From: Patescibacteria group bacterium
GTDB taxonomy: Bacteria > Patescibacteriota > Patescibacteriia > 2-12-FULL-60-25
Direction of reading: 5' to 3'
Assembly: GCA_022703155.1 (NCBI GenBank)
Contig: JAKLEH010000003.1
Location: 1-48,968 of the forward strand
DNA: 48,968 nt
Of this stretch, positions 17,323 through 40,249 are shown in pieces. The notes under the pieces are model-generated. The model saw nothing but the letters and a program-made list of their open reading frames with translations, did no database searches and was not told the origin of the DNA. The position numbers were made by a program, and so were the translations under genes. The first letter of the stretch is position 1; the number at the start of each line of letters is the position of its first letter.

Positions 17323-20300
17323 ATGCCAGCATCAAGCATGGAACCGGTTAGGTCAGCGCCAAAAACCGAAGTCGTGCCGCCGCGTACGGAGCGGACTTCG
17401 GATACGGGTCCGGAAATTAAAGGCAAAACCCCGTTTGAGCGCGCGCATGAGGCGGGCATGCAGTTTGCCCAAGCCGTCATCGATTACGTGGAGCGCGCCA
17501 AACGCGAGACCGCCGGCGGCAACGCGAGCGAACGCGCCGAAGCCCAACAGCTCAACCAAGAAGCCCAAGCCGCGGCCGACAAAGCGCAACGCGAATTGGC
17601 CGCGGTGCAAGGCCGTCTGGAGGAACAAGCCGGACCCGAAGCGGCAGCGCAACCCAAGGTTGAAGCCGTGCCCGACGCCGCTCTGGAAACCAAGAAGTTG
17701 GCCATGGAGGGCAAACGCGACGCCGTGGCCCAAGCCGAAGCCCAGCTCAAGCAGTTCGAAGGTTTTGGCGCGCTTAAACGTTTGGGCCAGGCGGGCCGCG
17801 AGGAGCACGAGAAAATCATGGAGGCCTTGGGCAAAGCGCGCCAAGAATATGCCGAAGCGCGTGCCGAGTTCGTGGGTTCGTCGGCCATGCGCATGCTTGA
17901 GGAGCGTACGGCGTTGGCCGACAAAGTGGCGCAGGAACGCAATAAGGAAAAAGGCTTGGGCGAAAAGGTTTACGACGCGTACAAAAAATTGGGCGACATG
18001 AGTTTGGCCAAAATCTGGAAGCCCAAATCCAAGGCTTTGCAATTCTTCGCTCGCACGGCCAACGTGCGCACTCTCATCAGCGCGGGTTTGTTGGGCGTGG
18101 GTTTGGCCGCGGGCGCGGCCGGCGGCGTGGGCGTGGGCATCGGCGTGTTGGCCGCGCGACGTCTGTTTGCGGGTATGGGCGCCGCCTTCGGTTCTTATGA
18201 CGTGATGCGCATGGTGGCCGACCGGCGCGGCGGAAAAATCGACGAACAGAAGCTGCAGGAGATGGCCATCGAGGAAATCGTGTCGCGCTTGGAAAAGCTG
18301 GAAGCCGAGAACATGCGCAACGGCACCGAGGTCAGCAAAAACGACTCGTATCAAAAATTGACCGCCGAATACGCGCGCCGTGCCCAAAGCGCGGATCAGG
18401 ACGTGACGGCCGAAACCTCGCCCGAAGACATCGTTTTCCGCCAAGGCCAAATTGCGGATTTTATGGCCGAGGCGGATCGCGGTCTGGAAGCCGCTCGGAG
18501 CAAGAACGCCAAACGGAACCGGGCCATGAAGGTCGCGGCCGGAGCCGTGGGCGCCATCGTTGGATCGGGCTTGCTGGCAAAAGCCGTGGGCGCGGTGGCA
18601 CACGAAGTTTCCGGACCCAAACCGGGCGTGGCCGAAGCGTCCATCGGTAAAGCCGGGTTAAGCAAAGCGTTGCAAGAAAAGATCGCCCAAACCGCGGCCG
18701 CCGAACAGTCGGCCAACGCCGAGCGTTTGATCGAAGCCGGCACGTTCGGCAAAGGCGACACGTTGCAAGGCGTGACGCAGCGTTTGCTCATGGCCAATCC
18801 CAAAGAATACGGTTTCACCGGCAATTTGGAGGATAAGGCCGCGGTGGCCAAGTGGGCCAAAGGGCAAGCCACCAACATGCTGCGTGACCAGGGTTTCGTC
18901 CGCCGATTGTCTCAGGGCAACGCGCGCCTCACTCGTTTGACCGAAGTCGCAAGCTCCAAAGACCATCCGGCGCACGCCATGTTGGTCCGCGACGCCAAAG
19001 GCGCCCTGCGCATCCAACTGGACCAGGACGCAAAATTGGTCGAGGCCATGCAAGGCAATAAACCGTTCTCCGAATCGGGTTTGGTTAGCGCGCGGCAATT
19101 GGCGGCCGAGGCGCGCGGCGCCATCTCCTCGAACCAATACGGTTTGGATCGGGCGAAAGAGGCATTGCGTGGTATGGATGCGCAGAAGATGGCAGCTTTA
19201 CGAAAAATCGTAAACCATGAACGTTACTTGGACTCCCATCCGGCCGAAGCCCAGGGTACGGTCAGGTATTCGCCGGATTTGATGAAGAAGTGGAGCGGCA
19301 TGGTCAGGGATTTTGACAACGCTGAATCGCGACGCGCTTTTTATCAGGAAAAATTGGCCGAAGCGCAACAGAATCTCGAGTACGCCAATACGCAGGAGCG
19401 GCACATCCTCGCCCAAAAGGCCGATTGGGAGGCGTTGCAGGGCCGCGGCGGAGGTCCGCGCGTGGGGCGGTTCAATGCGGAAGAGGCGTTGCGCGGCGTT
19501 CGCAATAAGACCGTGCCTGAAGGGGTGCAACCGTCTGAGGCGCCTGTCGCAACCGGAAACGAAGCCACACAGTCTGCAGTCAAGGCGGCTCGAGACCTAA
19601 GCGCGCTCGATGCCGCGGCCATAGCCACAGGCGCTTTGGCTGGCGCGGGCATGCTCGGTGCTCACATGCCCAAACGCGGCGAACGCAAACAGGAAGCCGA
19701 AGCCGCGTCAGAGGAAGTCCCGGTCAAAGTTGCCGAACAACCTCAAGAGGCCGCGCCTGAAACTACAGTCGAACCGAGCGTGGCGGAAAGGCCGCCTAGC
19801 CTCAATCCGTTTCAAACCGAAGCCACTACCGTCCGCGAACCCGAACGCGTTTTTACGAACGAAGAAGCCGAAACGTTGCGCGTGGAAACCGCGCCTGACA
19901 CCGAAGCGGAAGTCGCGACCATACGTTCGGAGACCGCGCCTGAGGTTGACCAGGAAGCGCAGACCACGCGGTATGTGTCCTCTGGTGCCGAGGTTGCTGC
20001 GCCGATAGCGGGTCGTGGCCTCACGCGACGCGGGTTTGGGATGTTGCCGATAGGCGCGGAAGTTCCTGAACCGCGAACCGAAAGGACCATGGAAGCTCCG
20101 GCGGACACTGTTCGCGAGTCAGAACCGGCGCCGGATACGGAACGCATGGAACCGCCAACCGAACGCGATGAGGCCCCGCCCACCCAACCGGAAAGCAGAA
20201 CCGTACGCGGCATGCCCATGAGCGCTCCGCGCCGCGAGACCGTGCGCGGTTTGGGTCCGGAATCCAAAACCTTAAAATCCAGCGAACCGCGATCCAAAAA

Positions 20301-20484
20301 AACGATCCGCCTGGGCAGTGCGCCGGAATCCGGCAGGACGTTGCGCGGCATGTCTCCGGTATCGTCGCAGGAGGTGGCGGCCAACCAACGCGATGCCGCA
20401 AACGACAACGGTTCGTCGCGGGCGAAAAAGAACCGGCCCAGGAACTCCACCGGCGCGCCGACGTTACGCAGTTTTAACGGTTGA
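17323..20484 (+). CDS. Large membrane/coiled-coil protein with repeated T-[VIL]-R motifs
   Basis: 1053 residues. The N-terminal about 230 residues are Ala/Glu/Gln-rich coiled coil. Two glycine- and alanine-rich hydrophobic segments follow at about residues 250-285 (LISAGLLGVGLAAGAAGG) and 403-425 (AGAVGAIVGSGLLAKAVGAV), then a mostly helical region and a third hydrophobic stretch near 765-780 (AAIATGALAGAGMLGAHM). The last about 220 residues are disordered and Pro/Glu/Thr-rich, with at least ten copies of a T-V/I/L-R/K motif followed mostly by G, S or E (TVREP, TLRVE, TIRSE, TVRGM, TVRGL, TLRGM, ending TLRSFNG). Third gene of a tight operon with the DUF5663-like and coiled-coil proteins. A structural or envelope-associated role is likely; the function is unknown. 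Confidence 0.8.
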   Translation: MPASSMEPVRSAPKTEVVPPRTERTSDTGPEIKGKTPFERAHEAGMQFAQAVIDYVERAKRETAGGNASERAEAQQLNQEAQAAADKAQRELAAVQGRLEEQAGPEAAAQPKVEAVPDAALETKKLAMEGKRDAVAQAEAQLKQFEGFGALKRLGQAGREEHEKIMEALGKARQEYAEARAEFVGSSAMRMLEERTALADKVAQERNKEKGLGEKVYDAYKKLGDMSLAKIWKPKSKALQFFARTANVRTLISAGLLGVGLAAGAAGGVGVGIGVLAARRLFAGMGAAFGSYDVMRMVADRRGGKIDEQKLQEMAIEEIVSRLEKLEAENMRNGTEVSKNDSYQKLTAEYARRAQSADQDVTAETSPEDIVFRQGQIADFMAEADRGLEAARSKNAKRNRAMKVAAGAVGAIVGSGLLAKAVGAVAHEVSGPKPGVAEASIGKAGLSKALQEKIAQTAAAEQSANAERLIEAGTFGKGDTLQGVTQRLLMANPKEYGFTGNLEDKAAVAKWAKGQATNMLRDQGFVRRLSQGNARLTRLTEVASSKDHPAHAMLVRDAKGALRIQLDQDAKLVEAMQGNKPFSESGLVSARQLAAEARGAISSNQYGLDRAKEALRGMDAQKMAALRKIVNHERYLDSHPAEAQGTVRYSPDLMKKWSGMVRDFDNAESRRAFYQEKLAEAQQNLEYANTQERHILAQKADWEALQGRGGGPRVGRFNAEEALRGVRNKTVPEGVQPSEAPVATGNEATQSAVKAARDLSALDAAAIATGALAGAGMLGAHMPKRGERKQEAEAASEEVPVKVAEQPQEAAPETTVEPSVAERPPSLNPFQTEATTVREPERVFTNEEAETLRVETAPDTEAEVATIRSETAPEVDQEAQTTRYVSSGAEVAAPIAGRGLTRRGFGMLPIGAEVPEPRTERTMEAPADTVRESEPAPDTERMEPPTERDEAPPTQPESRTVRGMPMSAPRRETVRGLGPESKTLKSSEPRSKKTIRLGSAPESGRTLRGMSPVSSQEVAANQRDAANDNGSSRAKKNRPRNSTGAPTLRSFNG

Positions 20485-20762: not shown

Positions 20763-21074
20763 ATGCTTTCTATCCGTCTCACCCGCATCGGCAAGAAGAA
20801 ACAGCCCGAATACCGTTTCGTAATCATGGAAAAGGGTCGCGACCCGTGGGGCAAGGCCTTGGAAATCCTGGGCAACTTCAACCCCCGCACCAATCCCGTC
20901 ACCTTCAACGTCAAGAAGGACCGCATCGAATATTGGATCAAGAACGGCGCCCAGTGCACGGACACGGTCTGGAACCTGTTCGTGGACCAAGGCTTGGTCG
21001 AAGGCGACAAACGCAAAGTCGTGAGCCTGTCCAAGAAGCGCAAGGAAAAACTGTCCAAGAAACAAGCCGCGTAA
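20763..21074 (+). CDS. rpsP: 30S ribosomal protein S16
   Basis: 103 residues; S16 is an assembly protein of the 30S body. It shows the diagnostic start MLSIRLTRIGKKKQPEYRFV, then EKGRDPWGKALEILGNFNPR and RIEYWIKNGAQCTDTVWNLF, with a basic tail rich in Lys. First of the rpsP-khpA-trmD series, though each gene here has its own promoter and terminator, and rimM and rplS, common members of this cluster, are not between or directly after them. Confidence 0.97.
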   Translation: MLSIRLTRIGKKKQPEYRFVIMEKGRDPWGKALEILGNFNPRTNPVTFNVKKDRIEYWIKNGAQCTDTVWNLFVDQGLVEGDKRKVVSLSKKRKEKLSKKQAA

Positions 21075-21082
21075 AAAATAAA

Positions 21083-21103
21083 AAAGGCCGCAAGGCCTTT
21101 TTT
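21083..21103 (+). terminator. Intrinsic terminator of rpsP
   Basis: AAAAAGGCC-GCAA-GGCCTTTTTT hairpin with tetraloop. Confidence 0.92.
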
Positions 21104-21171
21104 GTATCGATAATTCGGCTTTTAGGATGAAAAAATGCATCTCAACCTAGCCAAATATTTGTCATTGTTGA

Positions 21172-21200
21172 TTGACGAAACGAGTTTTTTGTGTTATGGT
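21172..21200 (+). promoter_or_regulatory. Promoter of khpA
   Basis: TTGACG (21172-21177), 17-base spacer, TATGGT (21195-21200). Confidence 0.7.
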
Positions 21201-21203
21201 ATC

Positions 21204-21362
21204 GGCGCTTTGGAATGAAGATGCCGTACCGAAGCGCAGACGTTTTCAGATAAATCCCAGCTTGGCCCGCATCTTGGGGCAAGCCCATCTGGTTCCGTAC
21301 CCACGCATCGCCGCTTTGCAAACCCAAAGAGCGAGCGCGGACGGAACGATCCGAAAGCCGCT
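21204..21362 (+). promoter_or_regulatory. Structured 155-base leader of khpA
   Basis: Begins with a nine-base stem GCGCTTTGG/CCGAAGCGC (one G-U pair) around 21204-21237 and continues GC-rich to the start codon. A candidate autoregulatory leader; no known motif. Confidence 0.35.
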
Positions 21363-21716
21363 ATGGCGGAAAAGGACCAGCAGTTTATAGAGTTCCTGGT
21401 GAAGTCCATCGTGAACCACCCGGAAGACGTCCGGACCGAACGGACCGTTGACGAACGCGGCGTGCTTATCACGCTCTACATAAATCAAGATGACATGGGC
21501 TACGTGATCGGCCGCCAAGGCCAGACCGCGCGCGCCCTGCGCATCCTGCTCAAGACCGTGGGCGCCAAAGAGAACGCCCGCGTGAACCTCAAGATCTTCG
21601 AACCCGATGAGGCCCGCAAGGCGCACCAGGATTCCAAGGGTTCGAGCGCCCCGGCCGGCGAAGCTCCCAAGAGCGCGACCGTGACCGACGACGATTTGGC
21701 CGACTTGGGCATCTGA
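21363..21716 (+). CDS. khpA: KH-domain RNA-binding protein KhpA
   Basis: 117 residues. A single KH domain with the GYVIGRQGQTARALRILLK loop, the GxxG motif that grips single-stranded RNA. KhpA-type proteins act with KhpB/Jag on mRNAs in other bacteria. The N-terminal FIEFLVKSIVNHPEDV is typical. Unlike the about 75-80-residue standard form, it carries a roughly 35-residue disordered tail (SSAPAGEAPKSA) ending in acidic DDDLADLGI. Position between rpsP and trmD is conserved in many bacteria. Confidence 0.92.
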   Translation: MAEKDQQFIEFLVKSIVNHPEDVRTERTVDERGVLITLYINQDDMGYVIGRQGQTARALRILLKTVGAKENARVNLKIFEPDEARKAHQDSKGSSAPAGEAPKSATVTDDDLADLGI

Positions 21717-21765
21717 AGTCGCAAGACCGAAGACCCAAGACGCAAGTCTAGTGATAAAAATAAAA

Positions 21766-21792
21766 GCCGCTCGGAGCAATCCGGGCGGTTTT
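21766..21792 (+). terminator. Intrinsic terminator of khpA
   Basis: Nine-base stem GCCGCTCGG/CCGGGCGGT (21766-21774 with 21781-21789) with G-U pairs and T4. Confidence 0.75.
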
Positions 21793-21864
21793 AGTTATGA
21801 AAAACCGACGGATACGCCTTCGGGTCGGGATGTGGACGAGTATTGATTTTTATGGAATCATCAG

Positions 21865-21952
21865 TGGCATGAAGACTAAAGACGAAAGACTAAAGTCTAA
21901 GGGCATAAGACGGAAGACTGAAAACGCGAAACGCGAAACGCGAAACGCCAAA
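21865..21952. repeat. Low-complexity repeats just before trmD
   Basis: AAGACTAAAGACGAAAGAC words pass into CGCGAAACGCGAAACGCGAAACGCC (tandem CGAAACG). The frame of trmD stays open through them, but they look non-coding. Confidence 0.6.
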
Positions 21953-22663
21953 ATGGCTAACAAAAACACAAAGCCGTTGGCCGTGGATGTCCTGACGCTG
22001 TTCCCGGATATGATCGAAGCGTATTGCGGTACCGCGATTTTGGGGCGCGCGCAAAAATCCGGGTTGCTTAAGGTCAAAGCGCATCAGCTCCGCGATTGGG
22101 CCATCGACAAGCACGGCCACGTGGACGACCGCCCGTTCGGCGGGGGAGCGGGCATGGTGATGAGGGTGGAACCTTTTTTTGATGCGCTGCGCGCGCTCAG
22201 AGTCCGTAGCCCGAAGCGCGAAGTCCGGCATGACGGGCTCCGGGCTTCGAGCTCCGCTCTTAGGACCAGGGTGATTCTTACGAGCGCTAAAGGCAAAACC
22301 TTCACGCAGGCTGACGCGAAACGTCTTTCCAAATACGATCGTCTTGTCTTTTTGTGCGGGCGTTACGAGGGCGTGGACGAAAGGGTCGCGGAAAAACTTG
22401 CCGACGAAGAATTGTCCATCGGCCAATACGTCATGACCGGCGGCGAATTGGCGTCGCTCGTGATGATCGACGCGGTCGCGCGTCTGCGTCCGGGCGTGCT
22501 CGGTCAACCCGCGTCGTTGGATGAGGAATCATGGAGCGACGGCGACAAAAAAGAGTACCCGCAATACACTCGGCCCGACGTTTACAATAAATGGAAAGTA
22601 CCCAAAGTTTTGCTTTCGGGCGACCACGCGGAAATAAAAAAGTGGCGCGAAGCCAATCGGTAG
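21953..22663 (+). CDS. trmD: tRNA (guanine-37-N1)-methyltransferase TrmD, with a repeat-derived insertion
   Basis: SPOUT-fold enzyme that methylates G37 next to the anticodon. 236 residues from ATG 21953, the start that matches homologues (VDVLTLFPDMIEAY). Motifs: GRAQKSGLLKVKAHQLRDWA, DDRPFGGGAGMVMRVEP, LCGRYEGVDERV, IGQYVMTGGELASLV, and the C-terminal PQYTRPDVYNKWKVP. The segment encoded by about 22195-22265, between FFDALRAL and RVILTSAKGKTF, is longer than usual and rich in Arg and Ser; its DNA resembles the intergenic repeat at 33521-33570, sharing CTCCGGGCTTCG and GCTCCG words. Confidence 0.93.
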   Translation: MANKNTKPLAVDVLTLFPDMIEAYCGTAILGRAQKSGLLKVKAHQLRDWAIDKHGHVDDRPFGGGAGMVMRVEPFFDALRALRVRSPKREVRHDGLRASSSALRTRVILTSAKGKTFTQADAKRLSKYDRLVFLCGRYEGVDERVAEKLADEELSIGQYVMTGGELASLVMIDAVARLRPGVLGQPASLDEESWSDGDKKEYPQYTRPDVYNKWKVPKVLLSGDHAEIKKWREANR

Positions 22664-22672
22664 ACGTCGATT

Positions 22673-22774
22673 CCCCTCCTTAATAAGGAGGGGTGAGGGG
22701 AGGTTTTTTGTTATTCATGTGATACCCCTCCTAACCTCCCAGAGCTAAGCTCAGCTTTGCCTTATTAAGGGGAG
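22673..22774. repeat. Composite palindromic element CCCCTCCTTAATAAGGAGGGG
   Basis: A perfect 21-base palindrome (22673-22693), GGGGAGG, T-run, then an inverted relative (CCCCTCC near 22726 to CCTTATTAAGGGGAGG near 22759-22774) around a GAGCT/AGCTC hairpin. The two arms both contain CCTTAATAAGG. It resembles a non-autonomous repeat and can also end both convergent transcripts. Confidence 0.65.
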
Positions 22775-22783
22775 GAAAGTTTT

Positions 22784-23356
22784 TTATTCCTTATTCGCAA
22801 AAACGGCGACAACGCCTACGGCCGTGGCGCAGACGCCCAGGCCGAACATGGTCCAGAGCAGGCGGTCGAAGCCGAGTTGCGCGGCCATGAGTCCGCCTAT
22901 GGCTGCGGCCGCGGCCATGATCATGGTATTGGAAAAACGGCGCATCTTGCGGACCGTGTGGCGGTGCTTCTCGTCAATCGCGACGCGCATCAAATGGCTC
23001 CATGAGGATTTGGCCAAGCCCAAGCCCGAACCCAAAAGCAACTGCGCGACGTAAATCAGCGCCATGTCCGTGGCCATCAAATAGACCAGGGGCACGGCCG
23101 CCACCAACGCCGAACCTGCGATCAAACCGCCGCGCGCACGTTTGTTTGCGTCACCATGTTGGAGGAACGTCGCGTACGTCCAATCGAACAAGGCGTAAGC
23201 GAACAGCCATACGGCCGCGGCCGCGGATACGGATTCGATGCCCGCGTCCGGCAGGCGGTCGGTCAAAAAGATGGCGAAGATCGGCAACATCAAACCGTAG
23301 CTGCCCAAGAGCAACAGGTCGGCGGCGAACAGGTTTTTAAGCAATCGGATTTTCAT
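22784..23356 (-). CDS. Half-size MFS membrane protein, second of a pair
   Basis: 190 residues with about six hydrophobic segments, half of a standard 12-helix MFS transporter. It aligns by eye along its length with its neighbour: VPLVYLMATDMALIYVAQLL here against APFFYLMARDMVDIYVIQAL there, and GLGLAKSSWSHLM against GVGLAFSEPAWDRM. MFS proteins move small solutes or drugs across the membrane. The start follows the stop of the first half by only four bases, so the two are made together and could assemble as a heterodimer. Substrate unknown. Confidence 0.82.
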   Translation of the reverse strand: MKIRLLKNLFAADLLLLGSYGLMLPIFAIFLTDRLPDAGIESVSAAAAVWLFAYALFDWTYATFLQHGDANKRARGGLIAGSALVAAVPLVYLMATDMALIYVAQLLLGSGLGLAKSSWSHLMRVAIDEKHRHTVRKMRRFSNTMIMAAAAAIGGLMAAQLGFDRLLWTMFGLGVCATAVGVVAVFANKE

Positions 23357-23360
23357 ACAT

Positions 23361-23942
23361 TCAGGCCCGCGCGTTCAGGGCCAAGCGCCGGTAGGCCGCG
23401 CCCATGAGCAGGGCGGCCAAAAACAAGGTGACGCCGAAGAACACGAGCAGAGCGGGTATGCCTTGGCTGTCCGCGATCATGCCGCCTAAGAGCGCCAAAC
23501 CCGCGGCCAAGAGGGCGCCGAAAGCATCCAACCTAAACCATACGGGTCCGTTGGCCAAATGGCAGGTCTTTTGTTCCATCCTGTCCCAAGCCGGTTCGGA
23601 GAACGCCAAACCCACGCCGTACAAAGCCTGGATTACGTAAATGTCCACCATGTCGCGCGCCATGAGGTAAAAGAACGGCGCGCCCACGGCCAACACGCTG
23701 CCGAACCAGAGGAAGTTTTGCGCGCGCCAGCCGCGGAAGTCGTTGCGGCACGCGAGCTCGGTAAACGGCCGCACCGTTCCCAACACCAACAAAAATACGG
23801 CTTCGGCAAAACCCACGGATAAGGGAGTGACGCCGGGTATCTGCTGTTTCAGGAACAACGCGAAAAGCGGGGCCAACAGCCCGAACGCCATCAGGTAAAC
23901 CATGTCGCCCATGGCGAGCAACCTCATCCAACGTGGAAGCAT
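23361..23942 (-). CDS. Half-size MFS membrane protein, first of a pair
   Basis: 193 residues, about six membrane helices, N-terminal-domain-like MFS half. The start ATG 23942 lies six bases after a perfect TATAAT on the minus strand, so the mRNA is probably leaderless. It contains GLLAPLFALFLKQQIPGVTP and the YLMARDMVDIYVIQALYGVG segment shared with the next gene. Two adjacent half-transporters with matching layout suggest either a split 12-helix transporter or a duplication that has not fused. No frameshift joins them, because the downstream half has its own Met start. Confidence 0.82.
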   Translation of the reverse strand: MLPRWMRLLAMGDMVYLMAFGLLAPLFALFLKQQIPGVTPLSVGFAEAVFLLVLGTVRPFTELACRNDFRGWRAQNFLWFGSVLAVGAPFFYLMARDMVDIYVIQALYGVGLAFSEPAWDRMEQKTCHLANGPVWFRLDAFGALLAAGLALLGGMIADSQGIPALLVFFGVTLFLAALLMGAAYRRLALNARA

Positions 23943-23948
23943 GCGGGC

Positions 23949-23954
23949 ATTATA
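23949..23954 (-). promoter_or_regulatory. TATAAT -10 box of the half-MFS operon
   Basis: Perfect TATAAT six bases before the start codon; no clear -35. Confidence 0.55.
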
Positions 23955-23984
23955 ACACAAACGCGCCGGACTGCGTGTTTACGA

Positions 23985-24013
23985 TTGACAAAAAACCCAA
24001 AAAATGATAACCA
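23985..24013 (+). promoter_or_regulatory. Promoter of the 24052 gene
   Basis: TTGACA (23985-23990), 17-base spacer, TAACCA (24008-24013). Confidence 0.6.
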
Positions 24014-24051
24014 ATCAACGCGTCATTACATTAAAAATGAAAGGGCATCCG

Positions 24052-24759
24052 ATGAATTTTTCCATGGGACATGGGTTTAGCGTCGGGCATACCGTAAGTC
24101 ATGCGTTCAGGCTCGATCAGGCGCAAAGCGTCGTCCTTCAGCAGGCCATGTTGCAGCGCCAGCGCGAGTTGGTGGAGGCCGTGCGGGGAAGGCGTTATCA
24201 GCCGCGTTGCGTGTGCCACAATCCCAATTGCGCGCATGAGTTTACGGATTTGGAAATCCTCATAGGATTCCGCGACGATCCGAACGACTACACCACCGAG
24301 TGCCCCAAGTGCCGTTTGCGCAGCGAACCCAGGCTGTACGCCTCGACCCAATATTCGCGCGTCGATATGGCGTACTATTGCCCGACGCAGACCCTGGAAA
24401 GGCTCAAGGCGTTGAGCAAGCTTCCGGTCGATGACATCCGCGTCGTGCATTCGGCCGTGTACAACTCCGCGGTCACGCACTTCGGCGGGCTCAAGCAGGC
24501 GTTCGCGCGTTTGGGCCTCAAGTACGCTTTCGAGGCCAACCTGGACTGGCGCAAGCACGTGGGACCGTTCCTGGGCAAGTTGCCGGACGCGGTCATCGCC
24601 AGGCTGCTCGGCGCGGGCGCGGGGCAAGTGAGGCGTTTGCGCAATTCCAAGGGCATCAAGCCTTTTCGAGCGCGCGACCTGCTCGACGAAGGGGCGGGAA
24701 TCCTGACCGAACACGTGGACGACGGACTGTCCAAGGAATCTTCTGAACCGACGGGATGA
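24052..24759 (+). CDS. Zinc-ribbon-like protein with helical C-terminal domain, unknown function
   Basis: 235 residues from ATG 24052 (AAAGGG upstream; ATG 24037 is also in frame). After a Gly/His-rich start comes RCVCHNPNCAHEF and, 25 residues later, TECPKCRLRSEPRL: four or more cysteines in two groups, a likely zinc ribbon. The C-terminal half is helical with LPVDDIRVVHSAVYNSAVTH, LLGAGAGQVRRLRNSKGIKP and similar, resembling helix-turn-helix segments, so a DNA- or RNA-binding role is possible. Its TGA stop lies in the loop of its terminator. No family recognised. Confidence 0.72.
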   Translation: MNFSMGHGFSVGHTVSHAFRLDQAQSVVLQQAMLQRQRELVEAVRGRRYQPRCVCHNPNCAHEFTDLEILIGFRDDPNDYTTECPKCRLRSEPRLYASTQYSRVDMAYYCPTQTLERLKALSKLPVDDIRVVHSAVYNSAVTHFGGLKQAFARLGLKYAFEANLDWRKHVGPFLGKLPDAVIARLLGAGAGQVRRLRNSKGIKPFRARDLLDEGAGILTEHVDDGLSKESSEPTG

Positions 24760-26743: not shown

Positions 26744-28102
26744 TTACTCTTCCTCGATATACCGAGGCTCTTCGATGAACGGATCGTCTTGCGCGTCTTC
26801 GTCGATAGGAACGTCCGGGTTTTGGAACCGATCGAGATATTTCACGATGCTCTCGTCCAATTTGATTTGCTGCAAGGTCACGGGCTTAACCAAATGCAAA
26901 CCTTCGAGCGACGTGCAACGGCTGAGCGCCACGTATACTTGGCCGGCCGCGAAAGCGCCGCGCCCCAAATCCAATGTCACCTTGTCGAAAGTTTTGCCTT
27001 GGCTTTTGTGGATGGTCACGGCCCAGGCCAAGCGCAACGGCAGTTGCTCGAAGCTGCCGATCTCTTCGCGTTCCAAGGTGTCGGTGCGTTTGACGTATTT
27101 GGTGCGGAATACGGTCCAGGTGAACGTTTCGATTTCGACAGTGCCGGGTTTGCCGTCCAATTCTACAGTGACCGTCTCTTGGTTCAGGCCGCGCACCCAA
27201 CCCAAACTGCCGTTCACGTAGCGTCCGCGCTGGTCGTTGGCCACGCACATGACGCGCGCGCCGATTTTCAATTCAAGGTTTTCGTCGGTCGGCAGATCGC
27301 GTTCGTTGAACCTTCCTTGGACCGAACCTTCAAATGCGCGCGGTTCGTCGGCAAGTTCTTCCATGCGCGAACGATTGATGTAGTCGGCCGCGGCGTTGGT
27401 AGGCGTCAGGATGATGGCGTCGCGCGGCGGCTGGTCGTAAGTCAAACGGGCGTTCAGCGTGCGCAAGCCCTCCTCGGTGACCGTGCGGTTGCGGATGGAG
27501 TTCAACAGGTCGATGAAGTCCTGGTCTTTTTGACGGTAGACCTTGTCCAATTCCACGAAGTCCACCATGTTGATTTGCGCCAATTGGCGATACGTGTGCG
27601 ACGAGAAAAAGTACGGCGTGGCGTAATATTGGGAGAAGGTGGGGGATTCGTCGGACGTGACCACGGGCGGCAGTTGGTGGAGGTCGCCGATGCCCACCAC
27701 GCGCACGCCGCCGAACGGCATGTCGTTGCGCCGGGCCGTGCGCAGGAACGCGTCCACGCTATCCAATAAATCCGCGCGCACCATGGATATCTCGTCGATG
27801 ACCAGGATGTTTATTTTTCGGTACAGCCCGAGGTTTTTCCTTTCCAGCGCTTCGCGCCGCGCGATGTCGGGCGTCACGGCCGGCGGGATTTTGAAGAAGC
27901 GATGGATGGTTTCGCCGTCCACGTTCAAAGCCGCGACGCCGGTGGGCGCCAATACGGGCGTGTTCTTTTTGGTGTTCAGCACGAAGTGTCTGAGCAGCGT
28001 GCTTTTACCCGTGCCCGCGCGCCCGGTGACGAACACAAAAGCCTTGCCGTTTTCCATGCGCGACAAGGCTTGGTTGAATTGCGGGGTGAATTCCAGCGTC
28101 AT
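26744..28102 (-). CDS. Pif1-like superfamily 1B DNA helicase
   Basis: 452 residues. ATP-dependent 5'-3' helicase family. Walker A VTGRAGTGKST (Lys33), VLAPTGVAALNVDGETIH (motif Ia), Walker B LVIDEISMV, motif III GDLHQLPPVV, and the C-terminal HKSQGKTFDKVTLDLG and YVALSRCTSLEGL motifs are all present and intact. The length is that of a minimal Pif1 core. It ends in an acidic tail (DEDAQDDPFIEE). ATG 28102 lacks a clear ribosome site. Likely role in replication fork or recombination intermediates. Confidence 0.92.
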   Translation of the reverse strand: MTLEFTPQFNQALSRMENGKAFVFVTGRAGTGKSTLLRHFVLNTKKNTPVLAPTGVAALNVDGETIHRFFKIPPAVTPDIARREALERKNLGLYRKINILVIDEISMVRADLLDSVDAFLRTARRNDMPFGGVRVVGIGDLHQLPPVVTSDESPTFSQYYATPYFFSSHTYRQLAQINMVDFVELDKVYRQKDQDFIDLLNSIRNRTVTEEGLRTLNARLTYDQPPRDAIILTPTNAAADYINRSRMEELADEPRAFEGSVQGRFNERDLPTDENLELKIGARVMCVANDQRGRYVNGSLGWVRGLNQETVTVELDGKPGTVEIETFTWTVFRTKYVKRTDTLEREEIGSFEQLPLRLAWAVTIHKSQGKTFDKVTLDLGRGAFAAGQVYVALSRCTSLEGLHLVKPVTLQQIKLDESIVKYLDRFQNPDVPIDEDAQDDPFIEEPRYIEEE

Positions 28103-37081: not shown

Positions 37082-40000
37082 GTGGGCGCCTACCCCGAAG
37101 GCGCATGCGTGCCGGCTTTGGTCAAAGTCACGAACGAGAAGGACGCGTCCAGCGTGGCTTTTGAGATCGTTTACGATTACCGCAAAAACGGCAACGCCAC
37201 GGATGTCGTTGGCGTCGAAGACTTGCGTCCCATTGAGTTGACGACCGGCGTGATTGGGGACCCGGCCACGTCCGTGGACAATTTGAACGACATGGTGTTT
37301 CCGGGTTGGACGCTTAATTCGGTTTTGGGATTCGATTCTTCGGGCGGCGGCGTTTCGGCTGCCATCACCGGTCCGTTTGGCGGGGATTCCGGAACCACGG
37401 CTACGGCCGAAACCGATACGCTGCGCCACTATAACGTCGCATTGAGCAGCATTGAGGAAAACGCCACGGCCTATGTTTTGGTGTGCGCGAAAACCGGTTT
37501 GGACGCGAGCGGATTCCCGGGTTCGAGCATGAGCGTAAAGACGGGCGGCGGGGGCGGAGGCAGCATGCCTATTCAAGGCGGAGAGTTGTTGCAATTGCCT
37601 GCATTGACCCTGACCAAAACCGTGGCCACGGGTTCGGCCACTCCGGACCAATGGAGCTTCCATGTCACGCCATCCATCAACGGCCAATCGGATTTTGCCA
37701 TACCGGCAGGCCAATCCAGCGTCACCATTCCAAACGTTGAAGTCGACGGGAATTATACGGTCACCGAAACCGGCGGTCCGGACGGATATCTGTTCCAATC
37801 TGGAGCGGGGACCAATTGCGCGTTCGTGGATGAAACCGCGACCGCATCTTTGTACGCGGCCAAGCCCGCGGCTGACGCCACGTGCGAATTCACCAACGCC
37901 GCCATCCCGTTCGTGGCCACCACCGGCACCATTACGGTCATCGAAAACGTGGTCAACAACGACGGCGGCACGGCCACGCCCGCAGATTTCACTTTGAGCT
38001 TGAACGTGAATTCGGTTCCGCAGAATTTTCCGGGCAACGCCGCGGGCACGTCGTTCGTGGTCACGGCCGGAAGTTACTTCGTGGCCGATAGCGGCTTGGT
38101 TCCGGGTTATTCGGTTTCGTATTCTTCCGAATGCATGGGTACCCTTTCGGCCGGGCAATCCGTGACCTGTACCGTGACCCACGACGACAACTCCGTAGTC
38201 ATACCTCCGGGCGCGACCACGGGCACGCTCACGGTCATCAAGCGCGTGGTCAACAACGACGGCGGAACTTTCGGAGCGGGCGATTTCACCTTGACTCTCA
38301 CGGCCAGCGGCACCCAAACGGATTTTCCGGGCAATGAAGGCGGCACGCAATTCGTGATCGACGCCGGCGATTACGCGGTCACCGAGGGCGCGAACGACAA
38401 CTATGCGGCTTCGTTCACGGACGGTTGCACGGGCACCATGGCCGCGGGCCAATCGCGCGTCTGTACCGTGACCAACGACGACGTGGCCCCGCCCTTCGAG
38501 GCCACCACGGGCACGCTCACGGTCATTAAGCGCGTCATCAACGACAACGGCGGCACGGCCGTGGCCAGCGATTTCACTCTGAACCTGACCCAAGGCGACG
38601 CTTCGCCGGTGGGTTTCGCGGGCAACGCTTCGGGCACGACTTTTGAAGTCCAAGCCGGCACGTATTCGGTTGGCGAACAGGAGAACGCATTGGGTTATGC
38701 GGCTTCGTATTCCGAAACTTGTTCCGGCACCATGGCTGCGGGCGAATCGCGCGTATGCACGATCACCAACGACGACCCGGACAACGGGGGCGGCGACCCG
38801 CCGCCGTTCACGGCCACGACCGGCACCGTCACCATCGTCAAACAAGTGATCAACGATGACGGCGGCACCAAACAGGCCGCGGATTTCACGCTCATGCTCT
38901 CGGCCAGCGGCACCGAACCCATCAGTTTTTCGGGCAACGCCTCGGGCACGACCTACGTGGTCCAGGCCGGTTATTACATCGTGTCGGAAACAGGTTTGAC
39001 CGATTACCAAATCAGTTATTCGGAAAATTGTTCCGGGACCTTGGTTGCCGGACAGTCGCGCACCTGCACCGTGACCAATGACGACAAAGGCCAGACCGAA
39101 CCCCCGACGCAAACGCCGACCGGCACGCTCACCGTGGTGAAGCACGTGCACAACGTCACGCAATCCAAGCGCGCGTCCGACTTCGCCTTGCGGGTCAATT
39201 ACGGCGAAAAGCCGGTGCAGCTCGACACGGCTTACCGCACCGCCGCGTTGGTGGCCGTGTTGTCCGAAGGATACGCGACGTCCGTGCCTGGCGATGAACG
39301 CGGCAAGGCTTTGGTTTTGGCCACGGGATCGTATACGGTCAAGGAAGATGCGGTTGCGGGCTATCGCGTAACGTATTCCGAAGGTTGCGCGGGTACGCTG
39401 GCCGCGGGCGCTTCCGCGACCTGTGTCGTGGACAATTACGACACCACCAATCCGCCGGTCAACGGCGGCGGAGGCGGTTGGACGCCCGGCATTTACGGCG
39501 GCGCGCCCAGCTTTACCCAGGTGCCAGAAACCACGCCCACGCCGCGCGTGTTGGGCGTTGAGGACGTGGCCGACATCCAGCCGCTGTGCACCATCACCGA
39601 CGTCGAATCCAAATACGTGGTCCAGAATCTGGATACGCTGCTGGCGCATTTGGGACGCGCCAAGGACCAGGGCATGGAGGATTACTACAACCGCGTGCTC
39701 ACGCCGCGCGTGGCGCCCGACGACACCCCGGCCCCGGTATTGGCGGCCATCCGCAATTTTGTGAATTACGGCACGCTGAGCACGGTCCGCTTGGGCCATG
39801 GCGAACGCGCCGGCGTGGTCGACAGTTTCCAGGCCATGCACGGGCGGTTGCCGCAGGACGTTTGCGACTGGCAAGAGGTCATCAGGATGGCCAACACCAA
39901 GATGCCCAATACGGGCAAAGCGGAACGCGAAAGCTCGGTACTGGCCACGTTCAAAGCCATTTATAGCCGCTTGCCTAAGACCGGCAGCGCCTTGGACGGC

Positions 40001-40249
40001 ATCGCGCTCAAGATCATGGCGTACGGCATTCGTCCGCAGGTCCGCGACATCGACGCGGAAAGGCACGCGGCCGTGGTGTTCTATAAACTGTTCAAAAAAT
40101 TGCCGACCACGGCTTCGGAATGGGACGCCAATCGGGCCATCGCCTACAGCGGCTTGGCGCAACGCTTGCTGACGGTGGATTTGGGCAACTCTCCGGGCCG
40201 CATCCTGTCCATCGAAAGCGTGGGCACGGCGTTCGCGGCAGCGCAATAA
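37082..40249 (+). CDS. Repeat surface protein body (SpaA/prealbumin-like repeats), after an in-frame TGA
   Basis: 1055 residues from a GTG, but more likely the continuation of the signal piece at 36872. After a unique N-terminal domain and a GGGGGG linker, a first degenerate domain is followed by five about 95-residue repeats starting near 37919, 38216, 38506, 38816 and 39117. Each reads TTGTLTVIKxVxNDxGGT at the start and CTVTNDD at the end, with two cysteines and a YxVxE strand, as in SpaA- or transthyretin-like pilin/adhesin folds. A Gly-rich linker leads to a helical C-terminus with three degenerate units around FQAMHGRLP, FKAIYSRLP and FYKLFKKLP. No sorting motif is apparent. Likely cell-surface adhesin. 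Confidence 0.85.
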   Translation: MGAYPEGACVPALVKVTNEKDASSVAFEIVYDYRKNGNATDVVGVEDLRPIELTTGVIGDPATSVDNLNDMVFPGWTLNSVLGFDSSGGGVSAAITGPFGGDSGTTATAETDTLRHYNVALSSIEENATAYVLVCAKTGLDASGFPGSSMSVKTGGGGGGSMPIQGGELLQLPALTLTKTVATGSATPDQWSFHVTPSINGQSDFAIPAGQSSVTIPNVEVDGNYTVTETGGPDGYLFQSGAGTNCAFVDETATASLYAAKPAADATCEFTNAAIPFVATTGTITVIENVVNNDGGTATPADFTLSLNVNSVPQNFPGNAAGTSFVVTAGSYFVADSGLVPGYSVSYSSECMGTLSAGQSVTCTVTHDDNSVVIPPGATTGTLTVIKRVVNNDGGTFGAGDFTLTLTASGTQTDFPGNEGGTQFVIDAGDYAVTEGANDNYAASFTDGCTGTMAAGQSRVCTVTNDDVAPPFEATTGTLTVIKRVINDNGGTAVASDFTLNLTQGDASPVGFAGNASGTTFEVQAGTYSVGEQENALGYAASYSETCSGTMAAGESRVCTITNDDPDNGGGDPPPFTATTGTVTIVKQVINDDGGTKQAADFTLMLSASGTEPISFSGNASGTTYVVQAGYYIVSETGLTDYQISYSENCSGTLVAGQSRTCTVTNDDKGQTEPPTQTPTGTLTVVKHVHNVTQSKRASDFALRVNYGEKPVQLDTAYRTAALVAVLSEGYATSVPGDERGKALVLATGSYTVKEDAVAGYRVTYSEGCAGTLAAGASATCVVDNYDTTNPPVNGGGGGWTPGIYGGAPSFTQVPETTPTPRVLGVEDVADIQPLCTITDVESKYVVQNLDTLLAHLGRAKDQGMEDYYNRVLTPRVAPDDTPAPVLAAIRNFVNYGTLSTVRLGHGERAGVVDSFQAMHGRLPQDVCDWQEVIRMANTKMPNTGKAERESSVLATFKAIYSRLPKTGSALDGIALKIMAYGIRPQVRDIDAERHAAVVFYKLFKKLPTTASEWDANRAIAYSGLAQRLLTVDLGNSPGRILSIESVGTAFAAAQ
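37919..39440. repeat. Five tandem protein repeats in the surface protein
   Basis: DNA-level tandem repeats of about 270-325 bp with diverged sequence but constant ends. Confidence 0.8.

Follow-up and report, generated by a model that had tools for sequence, protein, structure and literature searches.

A Tandem Gene Pair in Patescibacteria Encoding Two Six-Helix MFS Halves of a Putative Split Transporter

Two neighbouring genes, P0002 and P0001, were found on the minus strand of a patescibacterial DNA of 48,968 nucleotides (the whole stretch analysed, referred to below as the window), and each encodes an MFS half. Members of the MFS, which ranks among the largest superfamilies of transporters, are normally made as one chain. 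Herein, a probability of about 0.7 is given to the reading that P0001 and P0002 together form one secondary transporter of the MFS type, each contributing a half as a separate, paired chain, and that they derive from a duplicated single-copy half. In the proposed mechanism, the two six-helix chains would be produced from the neighbouring genes and would pair in parallel, both N-in and C-in, around a two-fold-like axis. The substrate would be carried by rocking of both halves, as in fused MFS transporters; heterodimerisation, transport, alternating access and energy coupling are the presumed properties of the pair. The pair would derive from a single-copy six-helix MFS half that is widespread in Patescibacteria and most likely homodimeric, and a duplication on the stem of the window's genus would have let the copies diverge into a heterodimer.

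Results

Two adjacent paralogous genes

P0002 is the upstream half-MFS gene (positions 23361-23942, minus strand; 193 aa from its ATG, or 199 aa from an alternative upstream TTG start), and P0001 is the downstream one (22784-23356, minus strand; 190 aa), each with six TM segments. The P0002 stop and the P0001 start are separated by a junction of 4 bases (23357-23360, minus strand). An earlier note on this DNA had described two adjoining genes of 193 and 190 residues with a four-base spacing, and the open reading frames on the minus strand confirm this layout. The same note had counted about six hydrophobic segments per gene, and six long helices are present in each copy in the AlphaFold model of the joined pair. 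Its alignment of the two genes by eye was upheld as paralogy: 56 of 177 aligned residues are identical, with a Smith-Waterman score of 182 against a mean of 36.6 in 500 shuffled comparisons (sd 6.6, highest 74; z 21.9). A score so far above chance indicates that P0001 and P0002 are true paralogues. In both proteins, Lys and Arg (K+R) are more abundant at the N-terminus, in loops 2-3 and 4-5 and in the C-terminal region than in the outer loops; the exception is the five-residue C-terminus of P0001, which has a single K+R.

Genes resembling rpsP, a KH-domain protein gene and trmD by eye (20763-22663, plus strand) run towards the pair, and a trmD-like neighbour was present in all 8 of the genus loci compared (the ninth, L007, was left out). 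Between the trmD-like gene and P0001 lies a CCTCC/GGAGG-rich inverted repeat, seen by eye (22670-22780), which is perhaps a shared terminator and is absent from the list of the terminator scan. In the scanned region, 22550-24150, no promoter was detected and terminator-like sites were no commoner than in shuffled sequence. Elsewhere in the window, a protein of 1055 aa (37082-40249, plus strand) has five prealbumin-like SpaA_2 stretches and is probably a surface protein. Another of 1053 aa (17323-20484, plus strand) has no Pfam match; it contains hydrophobic stretches, and its C-terminal part is long, acidic and Pro-rich. A PIF1-like helicase (26744-28102, minus strand; E 6e-31) is also encoded, in a very small genome.

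MFS identity and fold

When the window proteins were compared individually with Pfam and NCBIfam, P0001 gave nothing significant (MFS_1 at only E 0.12), and P0002 gave nothing significant and did not reach MFS_1. Their link to the MFS runs through their family rather than through Pfam matches of their own. The family profile scores P0002 at 196.9 bits and P0001 at 202.7 bits, both having been included when it was built. MFS_1 was matched by 24 of 28 aligned members at E<=1, with a best value of 3.5e-23. Among solved structures, the family profile matched residues 1-179 of NorA, its N half, at about 1e-10, and also the C half of VMAT2. The profile comparison with N- and C-terminal MFS domains that the earlier note had proposed was positive for the family in both directions, but not for the window proteins alone, which have no significant Pfam match.

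The AlphaFold model of a single-copy member, L012, has six long helices with high confidence (pLDDT 94.5, pTM 0.88). In Foldseek, 48 of the 50 matches listed for this model carry titles recognised as MFS transporters, and the other two, 9d7v and 9d7x, have uninformative titles; the TM-score was 0.64-0.75 on the query. In VIA-align, the C halves of SotB and MCT and the N halves of SLC19A3 and NorA scored Z about 20-21, differing by about 1.5 Z units at most. As modelled, the single-copy member would be a generic MFS half that could fit the N or the C position. The profile match to the MFS is made through the family, and the six-helix half with the MFS fold is seen in the predicted structures of L012 and of the joined window pair. 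These data indicate that both window proteins are MFS halves, as the earlier note had supposed from the letters, and that the family is not a six-helix family of another kind.

A widespread family of single halves

With P0001 as query, homologues were detected in 33 of 96 genomes, a set made up of the window's own genome and 95 relatives. The tandem pair was present in the window's genome and in all eight others of its genus, and outside the genus most genomes with a match had one ORF of about 200 aa. Within the class, a family profile built from 28 members, A1, matched 181 of 380 genomes at E<=1e-3, 125 of them at 1e-20 or better, and the class matches at this stricter level are halves, not ordinary MFS proteins. 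Across the phylum, 77 of 379 genomes matched at 1e-10, a count that includes a few weak matches to ordinary MFS frames or a fragment. At 1e-20, 24 of the 72 genomes searched in one order had a match, as did 46 of 85 in another class. When named genomes were scanned with a tight subset, 61 loci were obtained, 57 of them under CPR/Patescibacteria names; three of the rest are labelled only 'bacterium', and one is in a 'Nanoarchaeia' bin on a 4.4-kb contig. A family of six-helix MFS halves, mostly single-copy, is spread through Patescibacteria.

Six-TM MFS halves of a second group, which is more divergent, were also seen (L128-L147 and many of L235-L321), with about 190-215 aa and roughly 85-140 bits against A1. 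Both groups coexist in some genomes. Broken or shortened single-copy genes occur at L351, which is divided between two frames, and at L353, which is without about 40 profile positions in the TM4 region; these are decay or assembly error.

Fused versions, which the earlier note had proposed to look for in relatives, were sought among 269 distinct complete domains (profile positions 8 to 180 covered; partials and duplicates left out), with a median ORF of 206 aa and a 5-95% range of 186-235. None of the 269 has a second half in frame. A single chain with both MFS halves and at least 12 TM segments is absent from these 269 members, and the window genes are separate. The longest member frame, 461 aa, is a half-MFS fused to peptide deformylase. 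Three long frames were rejected as fused relatives: the second part of a 468-aa frame of G174 is peptide deformylase, and the frames of G367 and G265 have N-terminal ORF extensions and no second half. The ORF at L063:1674-3059 (minus strand) of G174 holds a half-MFS and a peptide deformylase together (PF01327, E 1.4e-45). Outside the tandem loci, 243 entries were listed, 168 of them with at least 700 bp on both flanks. Beside these non-tandem members, 22 adjacent same-strand membrane ORFs were inspected by eye and no recognisable half-MFS was found; they look like proteins of other types. The gene neighbourhood pointed to no functional partner, with neighbours that cluster only within lineages and none in common.

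One duplication in the window's genus

FastTree analysis of the 269 halves placed all nine P0001-like copies in a single clade (.997) and all nine P0002-like copies in a second (.997), and it joined the two at.985. IQ-TREE with 86 sequences gave a UFBoot of 100 for both copies together and for the P0002-like clade, and the P0001-like clade was intact. This branching indicates that one duplication on the stem of the window's genus produced the pair. Both copies are adjacent in 9 of 9 genomes of the genus, and the junction in the other eight ranges from a 7-base overlap to a 44-base gap.

These data bear on the possibility that the pair is a frameshifted or mispredicted full-length MFS gene. Adjacent, MFS-like ORFs are what such a gene would leave, but the same two-gene layout is kept in 9/9 genomes, a fused homologue is found in 0/269, and P0001 and P0002 group as sister paralogues, not as the N half and the C half of an MFS protein. 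This explanation is very improbable indeed, and the combination of fused homologues with a frameshift here, which the earlier note had named as fatal to its proposal, did not occur.

Other lineages carry tandem copies as well. The copies at L057/L210 represent an independent duplication (UFBoot 99), each copy clustering across two species, and those at L016 represent another (UFBoot 100), with very similar copies. At L065, a further tandem pair has copies that are not sisters. At least two lineages besides the window's genus appear to have duplicated the gene independently. Within the genus, G006 and G004 carry an extra gene of the ordinary single-copy type besides the pair, so the pair stands beside a single-copy gene in some species. 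The extra gene is split over two frames in G006 and cut by the contig end in G004, and the main pieces have 74-83% identity to single-copy members elsewhere.

Topology and conserved residues

Topology and conservation were measured in a strong group of 140 members (at least 160 bits, window's genus left out), which is mostly single-copy and includes tandem copies from other lineages. The mean K+R was 2.5-4.8 in the inner segments and tails and 0.2-0.5 in the outer loops. Because K+R sits on the inner segments and tails, the chains share one N-in, C-in topology. This pattern would fit a parallel dimer like two MFS halves, and it argues against the dual-topology, antiparallel dimers of the EmrE type, which are disfavoured by the charges of the 140 members.

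The least conserved helices are TM3 and TM6, with mean entropies of 2.19 and 2.36 bits versus 1.68-1.93 in the others. In the MFS, TM3 and TM6 are the lipid-facing outer helices. Strongly polar residues are commonest in TM2, TM4 and TM1 (0.117, 0.112 and 0.069) and rarest in TM3 (0.012), and TM5 and TM6 do not differ (0.048 versus 0.044). The helices are less sharply contrasted in the weaker group of 111 members. If a six-helix bundle stood alone, its conserved polar face would be exposed to lipid, and for this reason single-copy members should pair; they probably act as homodimers. The expected homodimer interface, TM2 with the partner's TM5, was examined by coevolution with two methods on 269 rows (Neff 138 at 62%). 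TM2-TM5 pairs made up 5/70 and 2/70 of the top pairs, about their share of all pairs at this Neff of 138 and with an unconverged pseudo-likelihood fit.

In L012 numbering, Asp23 of TM1 is kept in 96% of the 140 strong members, and Lys64 and Gln68 of TM2 in 78% and 74%. Asp76 in loop 2-3, which we take to be the motif-A Asp, is kept in 99%. At position 115 of TM4, which aligns with NorA Arg98, presumably the Arg of motif B, the family has Gln (81%) or Glu (14%), so a motif-B Arg is not the residue of this column. A cytoplasmic set, R135, H136, D138, E142, E145 and W146, is conserved at 78-96% in strong members. The TM1 Asp, kept in most members, is a candidate energy-coupling site.

In the window's genus, Asp23 is kept in 8/9 of each copy, and Gln115 in 9/9 and 8/9. 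The motif-A Asp is absent from both copies, where Gln or Ser is the commonest residue, His136 and Asp138 are absent as well, and Trp146 is mostly gone. Each copy has invariant residues of its own, for example an Arg aligned with position 68 in 9/9 P0002-like copies, where the register is uncertain with a one-residue gap alongside. The residue loss and the copy-specific residues are read here as a sign that the copies were freed from pairing with themselves and diverged into two unlike subunits; altered function could also explain them. With the motif-A Asp and most conserved cytoplasmic residues gone, the window pair could have changed or lost its function.

Two other readings are weighed by these residues. 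According to one, the tandem duplication gave two separate transporters, each copy forming its own homodimer with no heterodimer. Two points would suit this reading: most members occur as single copies, which must work alone or as homodimers, and the tandem copies of G043 are very alike. It is opposed by the joint retention and adjacency of the copies in 9/9 genomes, with genes overlapping or near-abutting, and by the copy-specific invariant residues together with the loss from both copies of cytoplasmic residues conserved in relatives. We regard it as rather unlikely. According to the other, the halves are not transporters and are repurposed or degenerate membrane proteins of the MFS fold, for example scaffolds or regulators. 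The Gln or Glu in place of the motif-B Arg, the missing motif-A Asp of the window pair, neighbour genes that vary by lineage and the one member fused to peptide deformylase are all in line with it. The conserved TM1 Asp, also in the pair, and the conserved polar residues in TM1, TM2 and TM4 speak against it and make it quite improbable.

Model of the joined chains

For the split-transporter reading preferred here, the two proteins were modelled as one artificial chain, in which the P0002 stop plus one base was read as Gly to give a two-residue bridge to P0001. P0002 takes the N position and P0001 the C position because they were joined in that order. The alignment used (A4) has 10 rows, five read-through tandem pairs and five single P0001-like rows; two other joined-chain alignments, in which single halves fell on the first half of the chain, were not used for modelling. 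AlphaFold gave 12 TM segments (pLDDT 82.5, pTM 0.81), the bridge region (residues 188-197) being of low confidence, and in this single-chain modelling device the two halves are packed around a pseudo-two-fold axis. All 50 Foldseek matches listed are MFS proteins, with TM-scores up to about 0.8 on both lengths. VIA-align gave Z 37.7 with VMAT2 over 373 residues at 2.9 A, and Z 33-37 with further MFS structures over essentially the whole chain. The model comes from a shallow alignment and from a program that was exposed to many MFS structures and might join whichever two halves it is given; it supports a heterodimer and does not prove it.

Origin of the half family

A tree of halves was built from 60 half-family representatives and, for comparison, the N and C halves (62 in all) of 31 patescibacterial MFS proteins of full length. 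All 60 representatives separate from all 62 halves (split support.965; the midpoint root is no evidence). Profile scores favour the N half in 19 and the C half in 12 of the 31 full-length proteins. Profile scores, the half tree and the structure comparison give no clear preference for N- or C-half ancestry. The separation would fit a relic from before the duplication, and would also fit fast-evolving reduced proteins.

The internal symmetry of fused MFS proteins has been the argument for an origin of the superfamily from a six-helix dimer. It is unlikely, in our estimate, that the single-copy halves are homodimeric MFS survivors predating the founding duplication and fusion, with the window pair as one of at least three replays. 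The data are matched no less well by secondary reduction of a fused protein, and reduction or deep divergence within the MFS is taken as the default. The earlier note had proposed a heterodimer like the presumed ancestral state. The putative heterodimer stands as the best reading, given the adjacency in 9/9 genomes, the sister clades and the joined model, but the ancestral part is not supported, given the one genus-stem duplication (UFBoot 100). The duplication behind the window pair is lineage-specific, and a closer likeness to the presumed ancestor is offered by the single-copy relatives, which are probably homodimers.

Discussion

Natural halves across the phylum, together with independent duplications, provide living stand-ins for the steps before fusion: a single gene, a near-identical tandem pair and a diverged tandem pair. 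Should dimerisation and transport by the halves be borne out, the origin of the MFS would become testable in the laboratory, and fusion would be shown to be unnecessary for an MFS carrier. It would be wrong to discard short 'MFS' ORFs of CPR genomes as fragments. Among the open-licence papers searched, none was found to describe a natural MFS protein that is half-size, split or homodimeric.

The DHA1 drug:H+ antiporters (NorA, SotB, YajR, MdfA) and VMAT/VAChT share the six-helix half fold with the family, the motif-A Asp with the single-copy relatives and the full 12-helix fold with the pair once joined. They differ in being one chain rather than two, in having a motif-B Arg where the family has Gln, and in the motif-A Asp, which the window pair is without. 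SemiSWEET and SWEET sugar transporters likewise have a half-size unit alongside larger fused relatives, but their fold is another one, with a 3-TM unit. The dimer logic of SemiSWEET parallels the proposed pairing of MFS halves. The DUF606 family, reportedly described by Lolkema in 2008, is said to occur as singles and tandem pairs of one membrane unit. It is an antiparallel, dual-topology system of another superfamily, whereas the signal here is parallel and no fused form was found. In the split lactose permease N6/C6, engineered halves of one gene form one transporter from two chains. The window pair has the same arrangement of two MFS halves on separate chains, but here the halves are natural paralogues.
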